A stretch of 11,127 nt of DNA from Gemmatimonadota bacterium. GTDB taxonomy: Bacteria; Gemmatimonadota; Gemmatimonadetes; Longimicrobiales; Longimicrobiaceae. How positions within the stretch are numbered: position 1 is the stretch's first letter; every line of letters begins with the position of its first letter. The notes under the pieces were generated by a model. It was not told the DNA's origin and searched no databases. It saw nothing but the letters and a program-made list of their open reading frames with translations. The stretch is from assembly GCA_019348475.1 (NCBI GenBank), contig JAHWJJ010000093.1:1-11127 (forward strand), in the 5' to 3' direction. Made by a program: the position numbers and the translations under genes. This document shows positions 2,588 through 11,127 of this stretch, in pieces.

Positions 2588-3619
2588 CTACTCGCGCCCG
2601 TCCGCGTCGGGAGGTCCGGCGAGGGGGTACTGCAGGTCCATCCCGTCCTCCCGCGGGGGCGGCAGCATCAGGTTCTCGCGCTCCATGGCCGCCATCCGCG
2701 CGCGGTTGCGGCGGCGGCGGGGGATCAGCGCGATCAGCCCCAGCAGCATCGCGGCGAACCAGATAAGCCCCACGTTGGCCCCCAGGGAGAGCCAGCCGTA
2801 GCGGCGGCGCACGTCCTTGCGCCACTCGTCTTCCAGCTGCCCCATCGTCATCCCCCAGGTGACGCGGACCGAGCGGTCCAGCGTACCCTCGCGCCGCCAG
2901 TTCTGCAGCAGCAGCGCGAACCCCTCCTCACCGGTGCGCCGGCGCAGGTGGTCCACCATGGTCGCGGAGAGCAGGTAGGCCAGCCGCGCGCGCCCGGCGG
3001 AGCGGGGCCAGGCCAGCTCCAGCGAGTCAAGCCGCGGCGCGCGCCCCAGCAGGAACGCCACCCGCAGCGTCCAGGCGCTCTCCACGTCCCAGCTGCCGGA
3101 CGCCACCTCCGCGTAGCCTTCCGTGAACCAGCGGGGGACGGGCTCCGGAAGCCGCTCCGCCACCACCAGGTGGGCGATCTCGTGCCGCAGCGTGGCCGCC
3201 GCGTCCGCCGGCCGCACGCCGGGGATGGGGTACGTGGGAAGGACGATGACGCGCGCGTGGGGAATGGCGATGCCGCCCGCCCACTCCGGCGCGCCGCCGC
3301 CCGTGGCCGCGGCGAAGTCGCGCGGCGTGGGGGCCAGGAAGATGGTGGTGGATTCGGGGGCGGCGCCACGGCCGAAGCCGGGGAGCGGCATGGGGCGCGT
3401 GGCGGTCGCCAGCACCTCGCGCGCCAGCGAAAGCTCGCGCGGGGCGTGCACCACGCGGACGGTGCCGGCGGCCAGGGTGTCGGCGCGCGGCTGGGCGTCC
3501 AGCGCGCCGGGGGAGGGGAGAAGCGCGAGAAGGGGAAGAAGGACGGCGCGCGCGGCGTGGCTCAGGCGCCGACGGACACCGGCTCCCCCGCCTCCAGCTG
3601 CGCCAGCGCCTTGCCGCAA
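2588..3619 (-). CDS. Membrane-anchored metallopeptidase, peptidase MA-like (HExxH)
   Basis: Zinc metallopeptidase of the gluzincin type. With the TTG at 3619 as residue 1 (343 aa), the zinc site is HEIAH (His146, Glu147, His150) and the likely third ligand is Glu167 in WFTEGYAEV, the usual spacing for peptidase MA-like enzymes. A signal peptide (about 16-42, RRRLSHAARAVLLPLLALL then ALDAQ) exports the catalytic part. A single helix at about 278-300 followed by RRRRNRAR anchors it in the inner membrane with a cytoplasmic tail of about 40 residues. It is the last gene of the operon and overlaps the TPR gene. The start is uncertain: TTG at 3619 is the nearest standard codon upstream of the signal peptide, but CTG at 3565 would give a 4-base CTGA overlap with the preceding stop, like the other junctions. 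Its substrate is unknown. Confidence 0.82.
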   Translation of the reverse strand: MRQGAGAAGGGGAGVRRRLSHAARAVLLPLLALLPSPGALDAQPRADTLAAGTVRVVHAPRELSLAREVLATATRPMPLPGFGRGAAPESTTIFLAPTPRDFAAATGGGAPEWAGGIAIPHARVIVLPTYPIPGVRPADAAATLRHEIAHLVVAERLPEPVPRWFTEGYAEVASGSWDVESAWTLRVAFLLGRAPRLDSLELAWPRSAGRARLAYLLSATMVDHLRRRTGEEGFALLLQNWRREGTLDRSVRVTWGMTMGQLEDEWRKDVRRRYGWLSLGANVGLIWFAAMLLGLIALIPRRRRNRARMAAMERENLMLPPPREDGMDLQYPLAGPPDADGRE

Positions 3620-4410
3620 CGTTCGCCCCACAGGTTGAAGCGGTTGGCCTGGTGCCCGGTGCGCCACGCCCGGGCCGCCTCGTCCAGGCGGCCCTGCAGG
3701 TAATACGCGCGCCCCGTCTCCCACCACGCCTCCAGCATCCCCGGCCCCAGCTCCAGCGTGCGGCCGAAGAACGAGCGCGCGTCGTCGTACATCTCGCGCT
3801 CCAGGTACAGCATCCCCATGTACAGGTGCGCGTAGATCTGCGCCTTGCGGTCGCTTTCCTGGCGGATGGCGCGCGACAGGTGCTCGATGGCCTCGCCGAA
3901 GATTCCCTTCTTCAGGCAGATGTACCCCAGGTTCACGCGCGCCAGCGGGTTGTTGGGGTCGCGCATCAGCACCTTGTAGTAGGTCATCAGCGCGTCGTCG
4001 TACTGCTCGCGCAGCATCTGCGCCCATCCCAGCAGGCTCTCGGCGTGCGGGTCGTTGGGCGCCAGCTCCAGCGCGCGCTCCAGCTCCTTGACCGCGCGCT
4101 GGGGGTCGCCCGACGCGATGGCGGTCCACCCGCGCTCCACGTAGGTGCTGCTGCCGATGTGGTCGCTTACGATGGTCTGCGGCTGCGCCGCGGCCGGCGG
4201 GGGCGCGGGGAGCGCCTTGTAGCGGTCCACCAGCCCGCGGATGCGCTCCTTGAGCGCCGTGAGCCCCTCGATGGCGGATTCCGTCTCGCGGAAGAAGCCC
4301 ACGATCTCCTGGCGCAGGGCGTCGCGGTCCTCCGCCCCGGCGCCGTCCAGGCGGGCGTCGATGGCGGCGAAGCGCTCCTCCAGCTCCGACAGCAGCTCCT
4401 GCGCGGTCAT
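3562..4410 (-). CDS. Coiled-coil and TPR protein of the chemosensory operon
   Basis: A 282-residue soluble protein without signal peptide. Residues 1-66 are charged, heptad-like helix (EERFAAIDARLDG, EIVGFFRETESAIEGLTALK), likely a coiled coil; 67-80 is a Pro/Ala linker. From about 88 to 275 there are TPR units, for example ERGWTAIASGDPQRAVKELE, LGWAQMLREQYDDALMTYYK, LGYICLKKGIFGEAIEHLSR and MGMLYLEREMYDDARSFFGR. TPR arrays bind partner proteins, so this is probably a scaffold or adaptor for the operon's sensory proteins; the partner is not visible. Its ATG overlaps the cheW stop as ATGA (4410-4407), which fixes the start and implies translational coupling. Confidence 0.88.
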   Translation of the reverse strand: MTAQELLSELEERFAAIDARLDGAGAEDRDALRQEIVGFFRETESAIEGLTALKERIRGLVDRYKALPAPPPAAAQPQTIVSDHIGSSTYVERGWTAIASGDPQRAVKELERALELAPNDPHAESLLGWAQMLREQYDDALMTYYKVLMRDPNNPLARVNLGYICLKKGIFGEAIEHLSRAIRQESDRKAQIYAHLYMGMLYLEREMYDDARSFFGRTLELGPGMLEAWWETGRAYYLQGRLDEAARAWRTGHQANRFNLWGERCGKALAQLEAGEPVSVGA

Positions 4411-4919
4411 GCCCCGTCCGCCGCTCCGCCTTCGGCGGGGACCAGCTCCGCCCCCTGCAGCGCGATGCGCTCCTCGCTGCTGAGGATGCGCTCCAGGTCC
4501 AGCAGGATCACCAGCCGGCCCTCCAGCCGCACGATGCCGCGCACGAACTCCGCCGCCAGGCCGCGGATGTACGCGGGCGGGGGCGCGATGCTGGTCTCGG
4601 GCGCGCGCAGCACCTCGGTCACGCTGTCCACCACCAGCCCCAGCCGCTCGCCCCCGAACTCCACCAGGACGATGCGCGTGTCCTCGTCGAAGGCGAACTC
4701 CTTCACCTCGAAGCGGCGGCGCAGGTCCACCACCGGGACCACCGCCCCGCGCACGTCCAGCACCCCCTCCACGAAGGCGGGGGCACGCGGCACGGGGGTG
4801 ACCCCCTGCCAGCGCAGGATCTCGTGCACGGCGAACACGTCCAGCCCGAACTCCTCGCCGCCGACCTTGAAGGTGACCAGCTGCACCTGCGGCACTGCCG
4901 CCTGCCGAACGTTTCTCAT
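4407..4919 (-). CDS. cheW: CheW-type coupling protein (copy 1)
   Basis: A single CheW domain (170 aa) covering about residues 12-150. CheW bridges chemoreceptors and the histidine kinase CheA at the inner face of the membrane. The typical elements are present: LVTFKVGGEEFGLDVFAVHE (first barrel strand pair), VEGVLDVRGAVVPVVDLRRR (the conserved G-V-x-x-x-R-G-x-x-x-P-V-x-D-L segment, about 50-69), LGLVVDSVTEVL and a C-terminal strand-helix LVILLDLERILS. The tail after 155 is acidic and Ala/Gly-rich. The start ATG overlaps the preceding stop as ATGA (4919-4916), with GGAGAG immediately in front, unusually close for a Shine-Dalgarno sequence. It differs clearly from the neighbouring second copy, so it is not a recent duplicate. 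Confidence 0.93.
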   Translation of the reverse strand: MRNVRQAAVPQVQLVTFKVGGEEFGLDVFAVHEILRWQGVTPVPRAPAFVEGVLDVRGAVVPVVDLRRRFEVKEFAFDEDTRIVLVEFGGERLGLVVDSVTEVLRAPETSIAPPPAYIRGLAAEFVRGIVRLEGRLVILLDLERILSSEERIALQGAELVPAEGGAADGA

Positions 4920-5413
4920 CTCTCCGCGCTGTCCAGGGTGGTGCGCTCGCCGAGGATCTCCGCGAGGTCGATCAGGGTCACCAGCCGGTCGTCCATCCGC
5001 GCGACGCACACCACGTAGGCGTCGCGGTCGCCGCCGGTGTGCGGCGCGGGGCGCACGCACTCCGGCGGCACGTCCATCACCTCGTGCACCGCGTCCACCG
5101 CCACCCCCACCCGCCCGTCGCCCATCGCCACCACCAGGACGGCAGGGGCCCGCGCCGCCTCGCGCGCCAGCCCCAGCGCCGGCGCCACGTCCATCACGGG
5201 CACCATCTCGCCGCGCAGCATCAGCACCCCCAGCAGGTGGGGCGGCATGTCGGGGAGCGGCTGGATCGTCCGCCGGGTCACCACCTCCTCCACCAGGCGG
5301 ATGTCGCAGCCGTGCAGCTCGCCCCCCAGGCGAAACGCGACGGCCTGCGCGCCCTCGCCGCGGGCCAGGAGGGCGCGAAAGTCCAGGGCCAGGGGTGCGG
5401 CGGGCGCGTTCAC
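4916..5413 (-). CDS. cheW: CheW-type coupling protein (copy 2, divergent)
   Basis: A 165-residue CheW-domain protein. Recognisable parts are [20 protein letters not shown] (about 24-43), [20 protein letters not shown] (60-79, the conserved core), [14 protein letters not shown] (102-115) and [12 protein letters not shown] (144-155). It has an extra N-terminal stretch of about 20 residues and Cys36 in the first strand region. It is more divergent than copy 1 and could couple a different receptor or kinase, or act without CheA as some CheW-like proteins do. The start is GTG at 5413, overlapping the cheB stop as GTGA, with GGGAG 7 nt upstream, which supports this choice over later codons. Confidence 0.91.
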
Positions 5414-6603
5414 GGGCTTTCTCCCGCGGGTGCGGTGGACAGGGCCGGGGCGGCGCGGACGTCCAGCTGGCGCTCGATCTCATCGTGGATCTGCTCCAGC
5501 GGAAGCACGGCGTGGGCGGCCTTCGCCGCGGCGGCCGGCATTCCGAAGATGACCGACGACGCACGGTCCTGGGCGATGCCGTAGCCGCCGGCCTCCACCA
5601 GCTCGCGCAGCCCCTCGGCCCCGTCGCGCCCCATCCCCGTGAGCACCACCCCCACCGCACGGCGGCCGAACGCCTCCGCCACGCTGCGGAACAGCGGGTC
5701 GGCGGCGGGGCGCACCCCCCACAGCGTGGGCTCCTGGTCCAGCGCGATGCGCACCTGCCCGCCATCGCGCAGCACGCGCATGTGCCAGTCGCCGGGGGCC
5801 AGGTACACGTGGTCGGGGCGAACCACGTCGCCCTCCGCCGCTTCCACCACGCGCAGCGCGGCCATCCCGTCCAGCCGCTCCGCGAACGAGCGGGTGAAGC
5901 GCGGCGGCATGTGCTGCACGATGAGGACGGCGGCCCCCAGCGGCGCGCGCAGCCGGGGCACCAGCTCGGTGAGCGCCCGCGGCCCGCCGGTGGAGGCCGC
6001 AATCGCCACCACCGCCTGGGCCGAGGGCCCCGTGAACGGCGCGCGGGTGGGCCGCTGCGCCTGCGGTCGCCTGCGCTTGCGCGCGGACGCCGCCTGCCTC
6101 CGCGCCGGCGCGTCGTGCTCCTGCGCGGGCGGGGGCGCCGCGGGACGGCGGACGCGGACGGGGATGACGGACAGGTTGGCGGTGGCCGCCGCCCGCAGCG
6201 CCTGCAGCAGCCGGTCCGCCACCGTGTCCAGGTTCAGCGAGATGGTGCCGGACGGCTTGGCGACGAAGTCCACCGCGCCGTAGTCCAGCGCCCGCATGGT
6301 CGCTTCGCCGCCCTCGGTGGTGTAGGCGGAGAGCATCACGACCGGGCGCGGGGTTTCGCTCATGATGTAGCCCAGCGCGGAGAGGCCGTCCAGCCCGGGC
6401 ATCTCCACGTCCATGGTCACCAGGTCGGGCTCCAGCTGGTGCACCTTGCGCAGGGCGTCGTTGCCGTCGTGCGCGGTGCCCACCACCCGGAACTCGTCGG
6501 TGCGCGAGAGGATGTCGCTGATCACCCGGCGCATGAACGCGCTGTCGTCCACCACCAGGACGGTCCGGGGGCGCGCCCGCTCCGCCTGGTCAGAGAACGA
6601 CAT
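5410..6603 (-). CDS. cheB: CheB, receptor methylesterase/glutamine deamidase response regulator
   Basis: Removes methyl groups from chemoreceptor glutamates when phosphorylated, giving adaptation. The 397-residue chain has a receiver domain (about 12-135) with acidic pair Asp19/Asp20, phospho-acceptor Asp65 in [12 protein letters not shown], Ser92 and Lys116 (AKPSG), then a methylesterase domain (about 196-380) with the catalytic triad Ser204 ([10 protein letters not shown]), His231 (VQHMPPRFT) and Asp327 (GMGRDGAEG). All key residues are present, so it should be active. The linker (about 140-195) is longer than usual and full of Pro, Ala and Arg ([13 protein letters not shown]). Its start overlaps the cheD 3' end by 14 nt. 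It probably works with the CheR and CheD encoded just upstream. Confidence 0.97.
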
Positions 6604-7084
6604 CGGCCTTTCCCACCGAGCTCACCGTCGTCTTTCCCGCGCCCACGTAAAAGCGCACCGAGCGGCCGTAGTCGCCCCCCACCTCCTCGGCCACCACCGG
6701 GATCCCCGCGCGCTCCAGCGCCTGCTTGGAGGCGATCACGTTGCGGGCGCCCATGTTCAGCGAGCCGGGAACCATCAGCGTCTGGAACATCGCCGCGCCC
6801 CCCACCAGCCGCGCCTTGAGGCGCCCGGGGCGCGCCCCCAGCCGCGCCATCTCCTGCACCAGCGCGGGGACGGCCGTGGTGGCGAACTTGCTGGCGTTCC
6901 CCTGGTCGCGCGAGAGGGCGGGCTCGGGAAGCAGCACGTGCGCCAGCCCGCCCACGCGCGCCTCGGGGTCGTGCAGCACGATGGCCACGCACGAGCCCAG
7001 CCCCAGCGTGACCAGGGTGTCGTTGGCGCCGCCCACCGCGGCCTGCGCCACCTTTACGAAGGTGGCCCCGTTCGGCTTGCTCAT
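6590..7084 (-). CDS. cheD: CheD, chemoreceptor glutamine deamidase
   Basis: Deamidates specific receptor glutamines to glutamates, creating methylation sites; in several bacteria CheD also binds the phosphatase CheC. The 164-residue length is normal. The catalytic set is clear: Thr26 and Cys32 in [15 protein letters not shown] and His49 in [10 protein letters not shown], with the same T-C and C-H spacing (6 and 17) as in the Thermotoga enzyme. The later signature LVGGAAMF (93-100) and GxxN region SLNMGARNV (108-116) are also present. The ATG at 7084 overlaps the cheR stop as ATGA. The 3' end runs 14 nt into cheB. No cheC is seen in the window. Confidence 0.96.
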
Positions 7085-7935
7085 GCGGGCCTGCGAAAGA
7101 TGCGCTCGCGGTTGTTCACCGGGCGAAAGAGCAGGCGCGCCTCGCCGATCAACGTCTCCACCTTTCCCATCACCAGAAACCCGCCGGGGGCCAGGGCGTC
7201 GTGAAAGCGCTTGAACAGCCGCTCCTGGATCTCGCGGTCGAAGTAGATGACCACGTTGCGGCAAAAGATCAGGTCCTGCCGGGCCAGCGGCTCGCCCGAG
7301 ATCAGGTCGCGCCGTTCGAAGTGCACCCCCGGCCGCGCCTCGGGGCGCACGGTCCAGGGGGGCCCGCCGGTGAACCAGCGGTCGCGGATGCGGGGCGGCG
7401 TCTCGGTCATCGACAGGTCCGGGTACTCGCCCCGGCGCGCGGCGTCCAGGCTGCGCCGGTCGATGTCGGTGCCCGTGATGTGGATGCGCCCCGCCTCGGC
7501 CGCGCGCCCCTGCTTCTCCAGCCACTCGCGCATCAGGATCGAGCAGGTGTACGCCTCCTCCCCGCTGGCGGAGCCCGCGCTCCACACCTTCACCTGCCCG
7601 GGGCGGTCGAAGAGCGCGGGGAGCACGTTCTGCTCCACCGCCTGCCACGTCTCCAGGTTGCGAAAGAACTTGGTGACGTTGATGGTGAGCGTGTCCAGCA
7701 GGTGGTCGTACTCCGCCGGGTCGTGGTCCAGCAGCGCGCCGTACTCCCGGAACGTCTTCTGCCCGCGCGCCCGCATGCGCACCGCGATGCGCCTGCGAAG
7801 GCACTTCTCCTTGTACCACTGGCAGTTGAAGCCGCGGTCGCGCTCGATCTTTCGCTTCAGCTTTTCCAGCTCCTCGTCGTCGCCCTCCATCTGCAGGGCG
7901 AACGGGGGGAACGGGGGGGGTACGGTGCCCGTCAT
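7081..7935 (-). CDS. cheR: CheR, chemoreceptor glutamate methyltransferase
   Basis: Uses S-adenosylmethionine to methylate glutamates on chemoreceptors, opposing CheB. The N-terminal helical domain (about 18-85) holds basic residues expected to contact the receptor (YKEKCLRRRIAVRMRARG, 41-58). The catalytic domain shows TINVTKFFRN (84-93), the SAM-binding WSAGSASGEEAYTCSI (118-133), TGTDID (154-159) and CRNVVIYF (225-232). The 284-residue length is typical. No TPR or receptor-tail-binding extension is fused, but the TPR protein is encoded directly upstream. The ATG at 7935 overlaps that gene's stop as ATGA and has GGAGAG about 8-9 nt upstream; Met16 is a less likely alternative start that would remove a proline-rich leader. 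Confidence 0.96.
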   Translation of the reverse strand: MTGTVPPPFPPFALQMEGDDEELEKLKRKIERDRGFNCQWYKEKCLRRRIAVRMRARGQKTFREYGALLDHDPAEYDHLLDTLTINVTKFFRNLETWQAVEQNVLPALFDRPGQVKVWSAGSASGEEAYTCSILMREWLEKQGRAAEAGRIHITGTDIDRRSLDAARRGEYPDLSMTETPPRIRDRWFTGGPPWTVRPEARPGVHFERRDLISGEPLARQDLIFCRNVVIYFDREIQERLFKRFHDALAPGGFLVMGKVETLIGEARLLFRPVNNRERIFRRPA

Positions 7936-9552: not shown

Positions 9553-10746
9553 TCAGGCCAGCTCCTCGATCAGGCGGTCTTCCAGGGCCAGCCAGTCCCA
9601 CGCCGCCTTTTCGGGGTTGAAGTACCACCGGTCTACCTGCGGCTGCGCCTTCAGCGCCTCGTCCGCGCGCCGCTCCACCGCCGCCCTGGCGGAGACCAGC
9701 AGCGCCTCGGCCTCGCCCACGCGGTCGGGGTCGGCCAGCAGCGGCGAGCGGGCGGAGTCGGAGCGCATCCCCTCCAGCTCCGCGCGGATCGCCCGCAGCT
9801 TCTGCACGTCCGCGGCGAAGGCGTCCAGCACGGCGTCCACGTCGGGGGCGGTGTCGGCGTCCAGCGCGGCTTCCAGCCGCCGGGTGCGGACGCCCTCGCC
9901 CTCCCAGCGCAGGATGGACTCGGCCAGCCGCTTGCGCCACGGAGCGGTCTCCACGATCTCCTCGACCGTGGCGGTGATGTCACTGAGAAAGGCGCTGAAC
10001 TCGTCCAGCGAGTGCGCCGCCGGCTCCGGCCGGTTGAGCGCGGCCACCTCGGGCGCCGAAAGGGTGCCGCCGCGCTCGGTCTGCGCCGCGCCCACCCGCT
10101 CCACCGCCTGCACCAGCCCCGCCGCGTCGGCTACGGGGAGCCGCGCGATCTCCGCCGCCGCGCCGTCGCCCAGCGCGATCCCCCGCTGGTCCGCGGCGCG
10201 CCGCGCGATCTCCTGGCGCGACTGGTCGCCCTCGTCGGTGGCGGCGGGAAGGTCCACGGCCAGCCCGCGGACGAAGCGGGCGCGCAGGTCGGGCTCGATC
10301 CCGGGGAGCTCAGCGGCGGCGGAGTCGCCGGCCAGTACGATCTGCGCCGTCCACTCCAGTTCGTCCCACAACTCCAGCAGCTCCTGCTGGGTGCGCGCCT
10401 TCCCCGCCAGCGCCTGCACCTCGTCCAGCAGCACCAGCTCCGCCTCCAGCAGCTCGTCGCGCAGCGCGTCCATGGACCCGCTTCCCACCGCCGCCGAGAC
10501 GCGGTCCACCAGCGTGTCCGCGGTCAGGTAGAGCACGCGCAGCTCGGGGCGCACGGCCAGCGCCAGGGCGCCGACCGCCTGCAGCAGGTGCGTCTTGCCG
10601 CTGCCGCGCAGGCCGTGGATGAAGAGCGGGTTGTACGCGGTGCGCGGGGCCTCGGCCACACGGCGCGCGGCGGCCGCGGCCATCCGGTTGCCGGGGCCGA
10701 CGACGAACGTATCGAAGGTAAAGCGCGGGTCCTGCTGAAAGATCAT
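9553..10746 (-). CDS. DnaA-like AAA+ ATPase without DNA-binding domain
   Basis: First gene of the operon, 397 aa. The chain starts almost at DnaA domain III: FTFDTFVVGPGNRMA (9-23) and AYNPLFIHGLRGSGKTHLLQ, with Walker A GLRGSGKT (45-52), Walker B LVLLDEVQ (104-111, DE where DnaA has DD), the DnaA-like LAGKARTQQELLELWDEL (113-130), sensor I region IVLAGDS (136-142) and arginine finger Arg157 in LRARF. The sensor II arginine of DnaA (xRELEG) appears replaced by Ala209 in DAAGLVQAV. After about 240, domain IV with its helix-turn-helix is absent; instead comes a helical, probably coiled-coil region (250-365) ending in WYFNPEKAAWDWLALEDRL. It is therefore not the replication initiator. One nucleotide separates its stop from the next ATG. 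Confidence 0.85.
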   Translation of the reverse strand: MIFQQDPRFTFDTFVVGPGNRMAAAAARRVAEAPRTAYNPLFIHGLRGSGKTHLLQAVGALALAVRPELRVLYLTADTLVDRVSAAVGSGSMDALRDELLEAELVLLDEVQALAGKARTQQELLELWDELEWTAQIVLAGDSAAAELPGIEPDLRARFVRGLAVDLPAATDEGDQSRQEIARRAADQRGIALGDGAAAEIARLPVADAAGLVQAVERVGAAQTERGGTLSAPEVAALNRPEPAAHSLDEFSAFLSDITATVEEIVETAPWRKRLAESILRWEGEGVRTRRLEAALDADTAPDVDAVLDAFAADVQKLRAIRAELEGMRSDSARSPLLADPDRVGEAEALLVSARAAVERRADEALKAQPQVDRWYFNPEKAAWDWLALEDRLIEELA

Positions 10747-11120: not shown

Positions 11121-11127
11121 GGCGGTC

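Follow-up and report, generated by a model that had tools for sequence, protein, structure and literature searches.

A DnaA-type AAA+ protein without domain IV encoded with PATAN-TPR, MglA-type GTPase and chemotaxis genes in Gemmatimonadota

DnaA and Hda are the described proteins closest to the ATPase analyzed here, whose gene lies in an 11,127-nt stretch of DNA from a soil bacterium of the Gemmatimonadota (the whole stretch is referred to as the window). With DnaA the ATPase shares the domain III AAA+ fold and motifs, but neither domain I nor domain IV was found in it, it has a coil region and a tail of its own, and members of its family often have two AAA domains. Hda is likewise a DnaA-type AAA+ protein without domain IV, whereas the ATPase of the window has 397 aa with coil and tail and is sited in an operon with Mgl, PATAN and chemotaxis (che) genes. 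On sequence comparison, the ATPase appears to be a new variant within the DnaA-type AAA+ proteins, with a strong genomic context.

Several signalling systems share parts of this context. The MglA/MglB and Frz systems of Myxococcus xanthus have an MglA-type GTPase, Roadblock proteins and CheA/B/R-type genes in common with it, but in Gemmatimonadota all of these share one operon with a DnaA-type AAA+ protein. According to the excerpts available of one publication (PMC4316618), mglA of M. xanthus and B. bacteriovorus is not near the genes of its partners, a group 1 MglA has been noted in Gemmatimonadetes, and the actinobacterial conservons combine a GTPase and a Roadblock protein with signalling genes in one operon; conservons differ in having a histidine kinase and a DUF protein, and no DnaA-type AAA+ protein is named for them in these excerpts. 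Cyanobacterial PATAN-REC pilus-motor regulators (PixG, PilG, TaxP2 and PixE) also use PATAN in a chemotaxis-like pathway, while the Gemmatimonadota PATAN is part of a protein that also has an MshE-N-like motif and TPRs and whose gene is next to that of a DnaA-type AAA+ protein. As far as titles and the beginnings of abstracts go, no description of the ATPase family was found in the open-licence PMC literature. In the same literature, no co-mention was found of DnaA with either DUF4388 and chemotaxis or PATAN and TPR, and the co-mentions of DnaA, MglA and MglB, as far as these texts were available, came from work on the E. coli Min system only.

Domain architecture and relation to DnaA and Hda

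The ATPase gene is a real open reading frame (ORF) with exactly the bounds listed in Table 1. PF00308 (Bac_DnaA) matches residues 6-165 (E=2.5e-42), and TIGR00362 aligns residues 6-222 to DnaA positions 105-319 with 170.5 bits, i.e., below the cut-off of 343.9. By alignment, the Walker A lysine (K51), the Walker B residues (D108/E109), the GKARTQ motif and the arginine finger (R157) are all present, and the sensor II Arg position is occupied by Ala (A209). A sequence-only reading of the window had recognized each of these features; its description of the ATPase as "degenerate" did not hold, as the ATP-binding domain is intact, with the Walker A Lys and the first Walker B Asp present in 60 of 60 aligned first AAA domains of the family (AAA1). 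Two of the features proved true of the window but not of the family, i.e., the sensor II Arg occurs in 48 of the 60 AAA1 domains (and is missing, in a 21-row alignment, from six f1 rows, namely the window and L033-L037), and the Lys of LAGKxRTQ in 8 of 60, as compared to 30 of 30 true DnaAs. The arginine finger was found in 50 of the 60.

Table 1. Coordinates of the ATPase, its parts and the other operon proteins in the window
Feature	Position	Strand	Remarks
DnaA-type AAA+ protein	9553..10746	-	AAA+ with lid, residues ~6-235; coil, 247-356; tail, 371-397
DnaA domain III-like AAA+ and lid, residues 6-235	10042..10731	-	K51, D108/E109 and R157 present; sensor II = A209
Coil region, residues 247-356, starting with helix-like stretch DEFSAFLSDITATVEEIVE	9679..10008	-	Family marker
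C-terminal tail VDRWYFNPEKAAWDWLALEDRLIEELA, residues 371-397	9556..9636	-	Motif in short and long forms, partly kept in microproteins
PATAN (DUF4388) + MshE-related c-di-GMP-binding motif (residues 57-109) + TPR repeats, 539 aa	7932..9551	-	
CheR	7081..7935	-	
CheD	6590..7084	-	
CheB (receiver + methylesterase)	5410..6603	-	
CheW	4916..5413	-	
Second CheW	4407..4919	-	
TPR protein	3562..4410	-	
Peptidase MA-superfamily protein	2588..3580	-	HEIAH in sequence; start provisional, 3454 alternative

The C-terminal half had been read as a new helical region, and this stands for residues ~245-397 (coil and tail), for which no Pfam or NCBIfam match was reported; residues ~170-235, on the other hand, are the DnaA lid. 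The reported lack of DnaA domains I and IV was borne out. Domain I is missing, because the match begins at residue 6, which corresponds to DnaA profile position 105, and hhalign gave a probability of 0.2 for the coil against the DnaA N-terminal alignment. The domain IV helix-turn-helix (Bac_DnaA_C, PF08299) was unlisted at E<=1 in the Pfam search of the ATPase, a negative limited by the HMMER filters, which discard most weak matches, and the coil gave an hhalign probability of 0.3 against DnaA domain IV; a positive control (AAA1 against DnaA domain III) gave 100. No relation between the coil and PATAN-TPR was seen with hhalign. The observation of a DnaA-type AAA+ protein without domain IV was thus confirmed, with the corrections given above. 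An identity as an IstB/DnaC-type loader was rejected, its matches being weaker than the DnaA-type ones.

A homologue search yielded 915 proteins at E<=0.001, and true DnaAs may be among the remaining ones, because only the best 120 of 915 are listed. Among distant homologues the C-terminus is more conserved than the whole protein (e.g., 73% vs 59% for P0091 and P0080); for the close homologue P0004 there was no difference (90 vs 91).

The real dnaA was located elsewhere, as a second PF00308 gene (494-aa frame) in the genome of the window, and PF08299 showed exactly one match per genome in 30 of 30 genomes examined, none of them at the ATPase locus. In a quick tree of 71 rows, AAA1, the second AAA domain found in longer family members (AAA2) and the Gemmatimonadota DnaA formed three separate clades. 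The ATPase also remains distinct from Hda, as first proposed, with 82.2 bits against the NCBIfam Hda model (cut-off, 194.8) and with its 397 aa including coil and tail, and its N-terminus (MIFQQDPRFTF) is, by eye, unlike what we take to be the Hda clamp-binding peptide. These comparisons bear on the alternative that the ATPase is a DnaA- or Hda-type replication regulator, which would bind DnaA or single-stranded DNA and link replication to surface behaviour. A DnaA-type AAA+ domain with arginine finger would suit such a role, as would the GKARTQ residues kept in the window, which presumably contact single-stranded DNA in Aquifex DnaA, and the LAGKxRTQ Lys retained in 26 of 44 AAA2 domains. Since no domain IV was found, the Lys is rare among AAA1 domains, the Hda score falls far short of its cut-off and the AAA domain is wholly absent from two lineages in which a remnant of the gene is still in place, we consider this alternative highly improbable.

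The tandem-AAA form represents an annotation trap, in that it satisfies the DnaA model of NCBI. The long form at L048:9569-11464, with two PF00308 stretches, passes TIGR00362 with 473 bits over two stretches (cut-off, 343.9), in our view a false-positive result. Several homologues (e.g., P0168, P0180 and P0227) carry source names such as "chromosomal replication initiator protein" or "...DnaA"; this naming is probably a misannotation.

Operon context and chemotaxis genes

In the window, the PATAN-TPR gene begins 1 nt after the ATPase gene. The ATPase gene, which had been described as leading the operon, merely appears to do so because the contig ends at position 11127, 381 nt upstream; in relatives it is located mid-operon behind mglA, and the mglA and Roadblock genes are outside the view of the window. 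The stretch from the ATPase start to the contig end contains a direct repeat (window:10840-11092), with two GC-rich copies of 100 nt that are 78% identical and 153 nt apart from start to start. A beta-lactamase-family protein (PF00144; window:170-1198, + strand) is encoded on the other strand, outside the operon.

Gene order, which we use as evidence for a shared process and not for contact, was compared among 20 loci of relatives, hand-picked from the homologue matches to span the families f1, f2, f3, f4, f5 and f9. The fullest order was CheW-CheY-CheA-CheC-large TPR-PATAN-TPR/Roadblock-Roadblock-second Roadblock-MglA-ATPase in the upstream part, continuing downstream of the ATPase with PATAN-TPR-CheR-CheD-CheB-CheW-CheW-TPR-Peptidase_MA. 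PATAN-TPR was the next gene downstream of the ATPase in all 20 of these first loci (ORF distance -17 to +14 nt, computed for 19 of them) and, as read by eye, in 16 of 16 further coil-positive loci and in 9 of 10 loci of another set, the tenth of which stops at a contig end. A Peptidase_MA relative was present in 19 of the first 20 loci. In L036 (L036:5321-9033; genome G251), approx. 3.7 kb lie between PATAN-TPR and cheR, unlike in the other cheR-bearing loci of the first 20.

Upstream, MglA was the next recognized gene in 17 of 20 loci. For 14 of the 17, the MglA and ATPase genes overlap or are <=23 nt apart, and ORFs that overlap were seen in 7 of the 17; in three f1 loci (L033, L034 and L036), a gap of 425-1292 nt separates the two genes. 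One of these, L033, carries between the two genes a 207-aa ORF without Pfam match (L033:8384-9007); in the two other f1 loci, the intervening stretch measures 425 and 715 nt. The identity of the MglA and Roadblock neighbours is supported by Pfam Arf/Ras and Robl_LC7 matches; the second Roadblock protein of L048 had no Pfam match at 0.01 while its L033 counterpart has one, and one Roadblock/LC7-type operon protein showed a weak match to the MglB model, far below the cut-off. This close linkage would be in agreement with a role of the ATPase as regulator or effector of the adjacent GTPase, its coil or tail serving as a GEF, GAP co-factor or effector. We regard such a role as unlikely, as the ATPase/PATAN-TPR pair persists in f3 without an adjoining mglA (none next door in six f3 loci, L041-L043 and L084-L086), though another MglA is present in trans, i.e., each of eight ATPase-bearing f3 genomes has one MglA match, which lies at another site and is weaker than those of the operon type.

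The linkage to che genes in relatives, which the sequence-only reading had implied, was frequent without being general. CheD and CheB were encoded downstream of the ATPase in 15 of the first 20 loci, and CheA and CheC upstream in 13, with three more loci cut by contig ends; no CheR, CheD or CheB was found downstream in the remaining five (L041-L044 and L050). Among the genes sought, three of these (L041, L042 and L043, all f3) had only the ATPase, PATAN-TPR, the peptidase and a receiver protein. We thus consider it quite unlikely that the ATPase is a switch or assembly factor specific to a chemosensory array, as had been proposed. The frequent che neighbours speak for this proposal, but none of the 11 ATPase-bearing genomes sampled (10 f3 genomes and G158 of f9; G069, G075 and G158 are single-contig) had a match to CheA (PF02895) anywhere, and 10 of the 11 had none to CheW, with three CheW matches in G252. 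G158 keeps its Mgl, Roadblock and PATAN genes without CheA or CheW. Moreover, a full-length PATAN-TPR persists in 10 of the 11 CheA-less genomes, the one in G134 being truncated. The same searches found CheW in G129, G032 and G166 and CheA in G044 and G012; PF02895 could miss a divergent CheA, because the G012 CheA scores just 31 bits, which qualifies the CheA-less count. Overall, constant company of CheA, as expected of a chemosensory component, was seen in 0 of 11 genomes, and the interpretation given in the sequence-only reading is partly supported: reuse of the DnaA ATPase fold without domain IV stands, and service as switch or assembly factor of a chemosensory complex is not supported in the form stated.

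Modular forms of the family and the PATAN-TPR partner

A match to the coil profile was obtained for 178 out of 298 Gemmatimonadota genomes, or for 153 out of 255 when those of high quality are considered, with a single match per positive genome save for four with two. A contig scan with this profile found 18 loci, 17 of which were placed in Gemmatimonadota, and the four organism-named matches among 103 homologue hits were all from Gemmatimonadota; these statements on range extend as far as the searches reach, and occurrence outside this phylum is possible. The remaining locus of the contig scan, a Streptomyces coil match (24 residues, E=6e-4), was taken as chance.

The family takes four forms, i.e., AAA1-coil-AAA2-tail, AAA1 only (as in the window), coil and tail only, and a microprotein. 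AAA2, inserted between coil and tail, is found at 12 of the first 20 loci, where the proteins measure 589-679 aa, and has the Walker A Lys in 35 of 44 cases; it is absent from the f1 rows (the family of the window), from f9 and from g54 and g70 genomes. In a tree of 45 rows, the presence of AAA2 requires four changes among the AAA-bearing rows, and the absence of any AAA requires two. No AAA is left in G159, where coil and tail only are found and the partner's MshEN is kept. A regular expression for the tail matched 43 of 55 listed rows, and some of its misses are visible in the alignment; f9 members extend past the tail. Two unusual members were seen, i.e., P0220, in which phosphofructokinase is joined to coil and tail (possibly an assembly chimera), and P0224, which begins at the coil (start provisional) and has AAA2 and tail without AAA1. 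P0123, in which coil and DUF4388 are fused, appears to stem from a reading of the two adjacent genes across a frameshift.

The microprotein, with a length of roughly 70-100 aa (start codons provisional), consists of an EFxxF(L/M) helix and a W...IEE tail and occupies the slot between mglA and PATAN-TPR in nine genomes, i.e., G010, G137, G292, G062 and G094 (g43) and G047, G095, G113 and G246 (g65), at loci L071:9927-10148, L072, L073, L122, L123, L125, L126, L127 and L129. Its nine rows form one clade in the 45-row tree (support 100/100). We rejected the view that microproteins are dead-gene debris, as the nine genomes of this clade all conserve helix and tail and still have them next to the partner. 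Among the 120 coil-negative genomes, 86 were searched with MglA (38 + 48), and an MglA of the operon type (E of about 1e-95 or better) was found in 13, nine of which carry the microprotein. G272, G168 and G244 are cut by contig ends and were not scored as losses, and in G084 mglA is followed by the peptidase, with neither ATPase nor PATAN-TPR found.

The PATAN-TPR partner exceeded the curated cut-off for the MshE-related c-di-GMP motif in 4 of 4 proteins scanned. PATAN-TPR was also surveyed in 19 genomes, 17 of which bear ATPase or microprotein. Of these 17, 14 had a full-length match, and G010 and G047 had a shortened one; in the ATPase-negative G017 and G042, the best matches (5e-16 and 7e-13) cover TPR positions only. 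All nine microprotein genomes have a PATAN-TPR without the segment that holds the MshE-related motif in the others. This hints at joint action of the AAA and c-di-GMP modules without amounting to proof, because the co-loss represents one event and G159 lost its AAA and kept MshEN. An exception to the intact ATPase-PATAN-TPR pairing occurs mid-contig in G134 (L143:2634-3837), where the sequence passes immediately from AAA1 and coil to the partner's TPR part, in another frame, with no AAA2, tail, PATAN or MshEN at the junction, owing to either a deletion or a misassembly. In L048, an upstream PATAN protein (L048:6349-7329) has an MshE-like stretch that scores 32.2 bits, below the cut-off of 38.

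A candidate adaptor of an MglA/PATAN module

The conserved core of the locus is helix, tail and the PATAN-TPR neighbour. In relatives, the ATPase gene travels with that of a putative second-messenger receptor and, in many cases, with one for a polarity GTPase, which suggests that a replication ATPase has been recruited to signalling in surface behaviour. We give about an even chance to the reading that the ATPase is a DnaA-derived AAA+ adaptor in an MglA-GTPase/PATAN module, with the AAA+ domain as nucleotide switch and pilus control as output. The ATPase would belong to a usually single-copy Gemmatimonadota family in which chemosensory control is frequent, not constant. Judged by conservation, its working parts would be the "EFxxFL" helix with which the coil begins and the C-terminal "W...IEE" tail, which may form docking surfaces for operon proteins, in the first place for the PATAN-MshEN-TPR protein of the neighbouring gene. 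The DnaA-type AAA+ domain, in one or two copies, may act as a nucleotide-dependent switch whose oligomerization gathers the partner into clusters or sets it free, the probable site being a cell pole. If this is true, the family would be an example of a DnaA-clade ATPase that functions in neither replication nor transposition and is encoded in an operon of small-GTPase, chemosensory and second-messenger genes.

The likely output of such an adaptor, by analogy with PATAN and MglA elsewhere, would be control over the activity or the direction of type IV pili. PilT was matched in each of 80 genomes, whether ATPase-positive or ATPase-negative, and 79 of these exceeded the cut-off, so that pilus presence is uninformative for the role of the ATPase. 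The pilus link is drawn because PATAN and MglA/SgmX act on PilB in other organisms: in Synechocystis, PilB, the motor of the pilus, is bound by PATAN regulators (PMC10519157, PMC9090330), and MglA and SgmX recruit PilB in M. xanthus (PMC11580455).

A more far-reaching version, which we hold to be unlikely, is that a DnaA ATPase became, by duplication and loss of its DNA-binding domain, the nucleotide-switched polymerizing scaffold of a c-di-GMP- and MglA-controlled pole complex that steers surface motility, and that some of its descendants are an engine-less microprotein with two docking peptides. EEVD peptides dock in TPRs; one may speculate that the terminal acidic residues of the tail dock in the partner TPRs in a similar manner, with a strict C-terminal clamp being disfavoured because f9 members continue past the tail. 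With forms that range from two AAA domains to none, the family offers a natural series in which one can ask what the engine adds.
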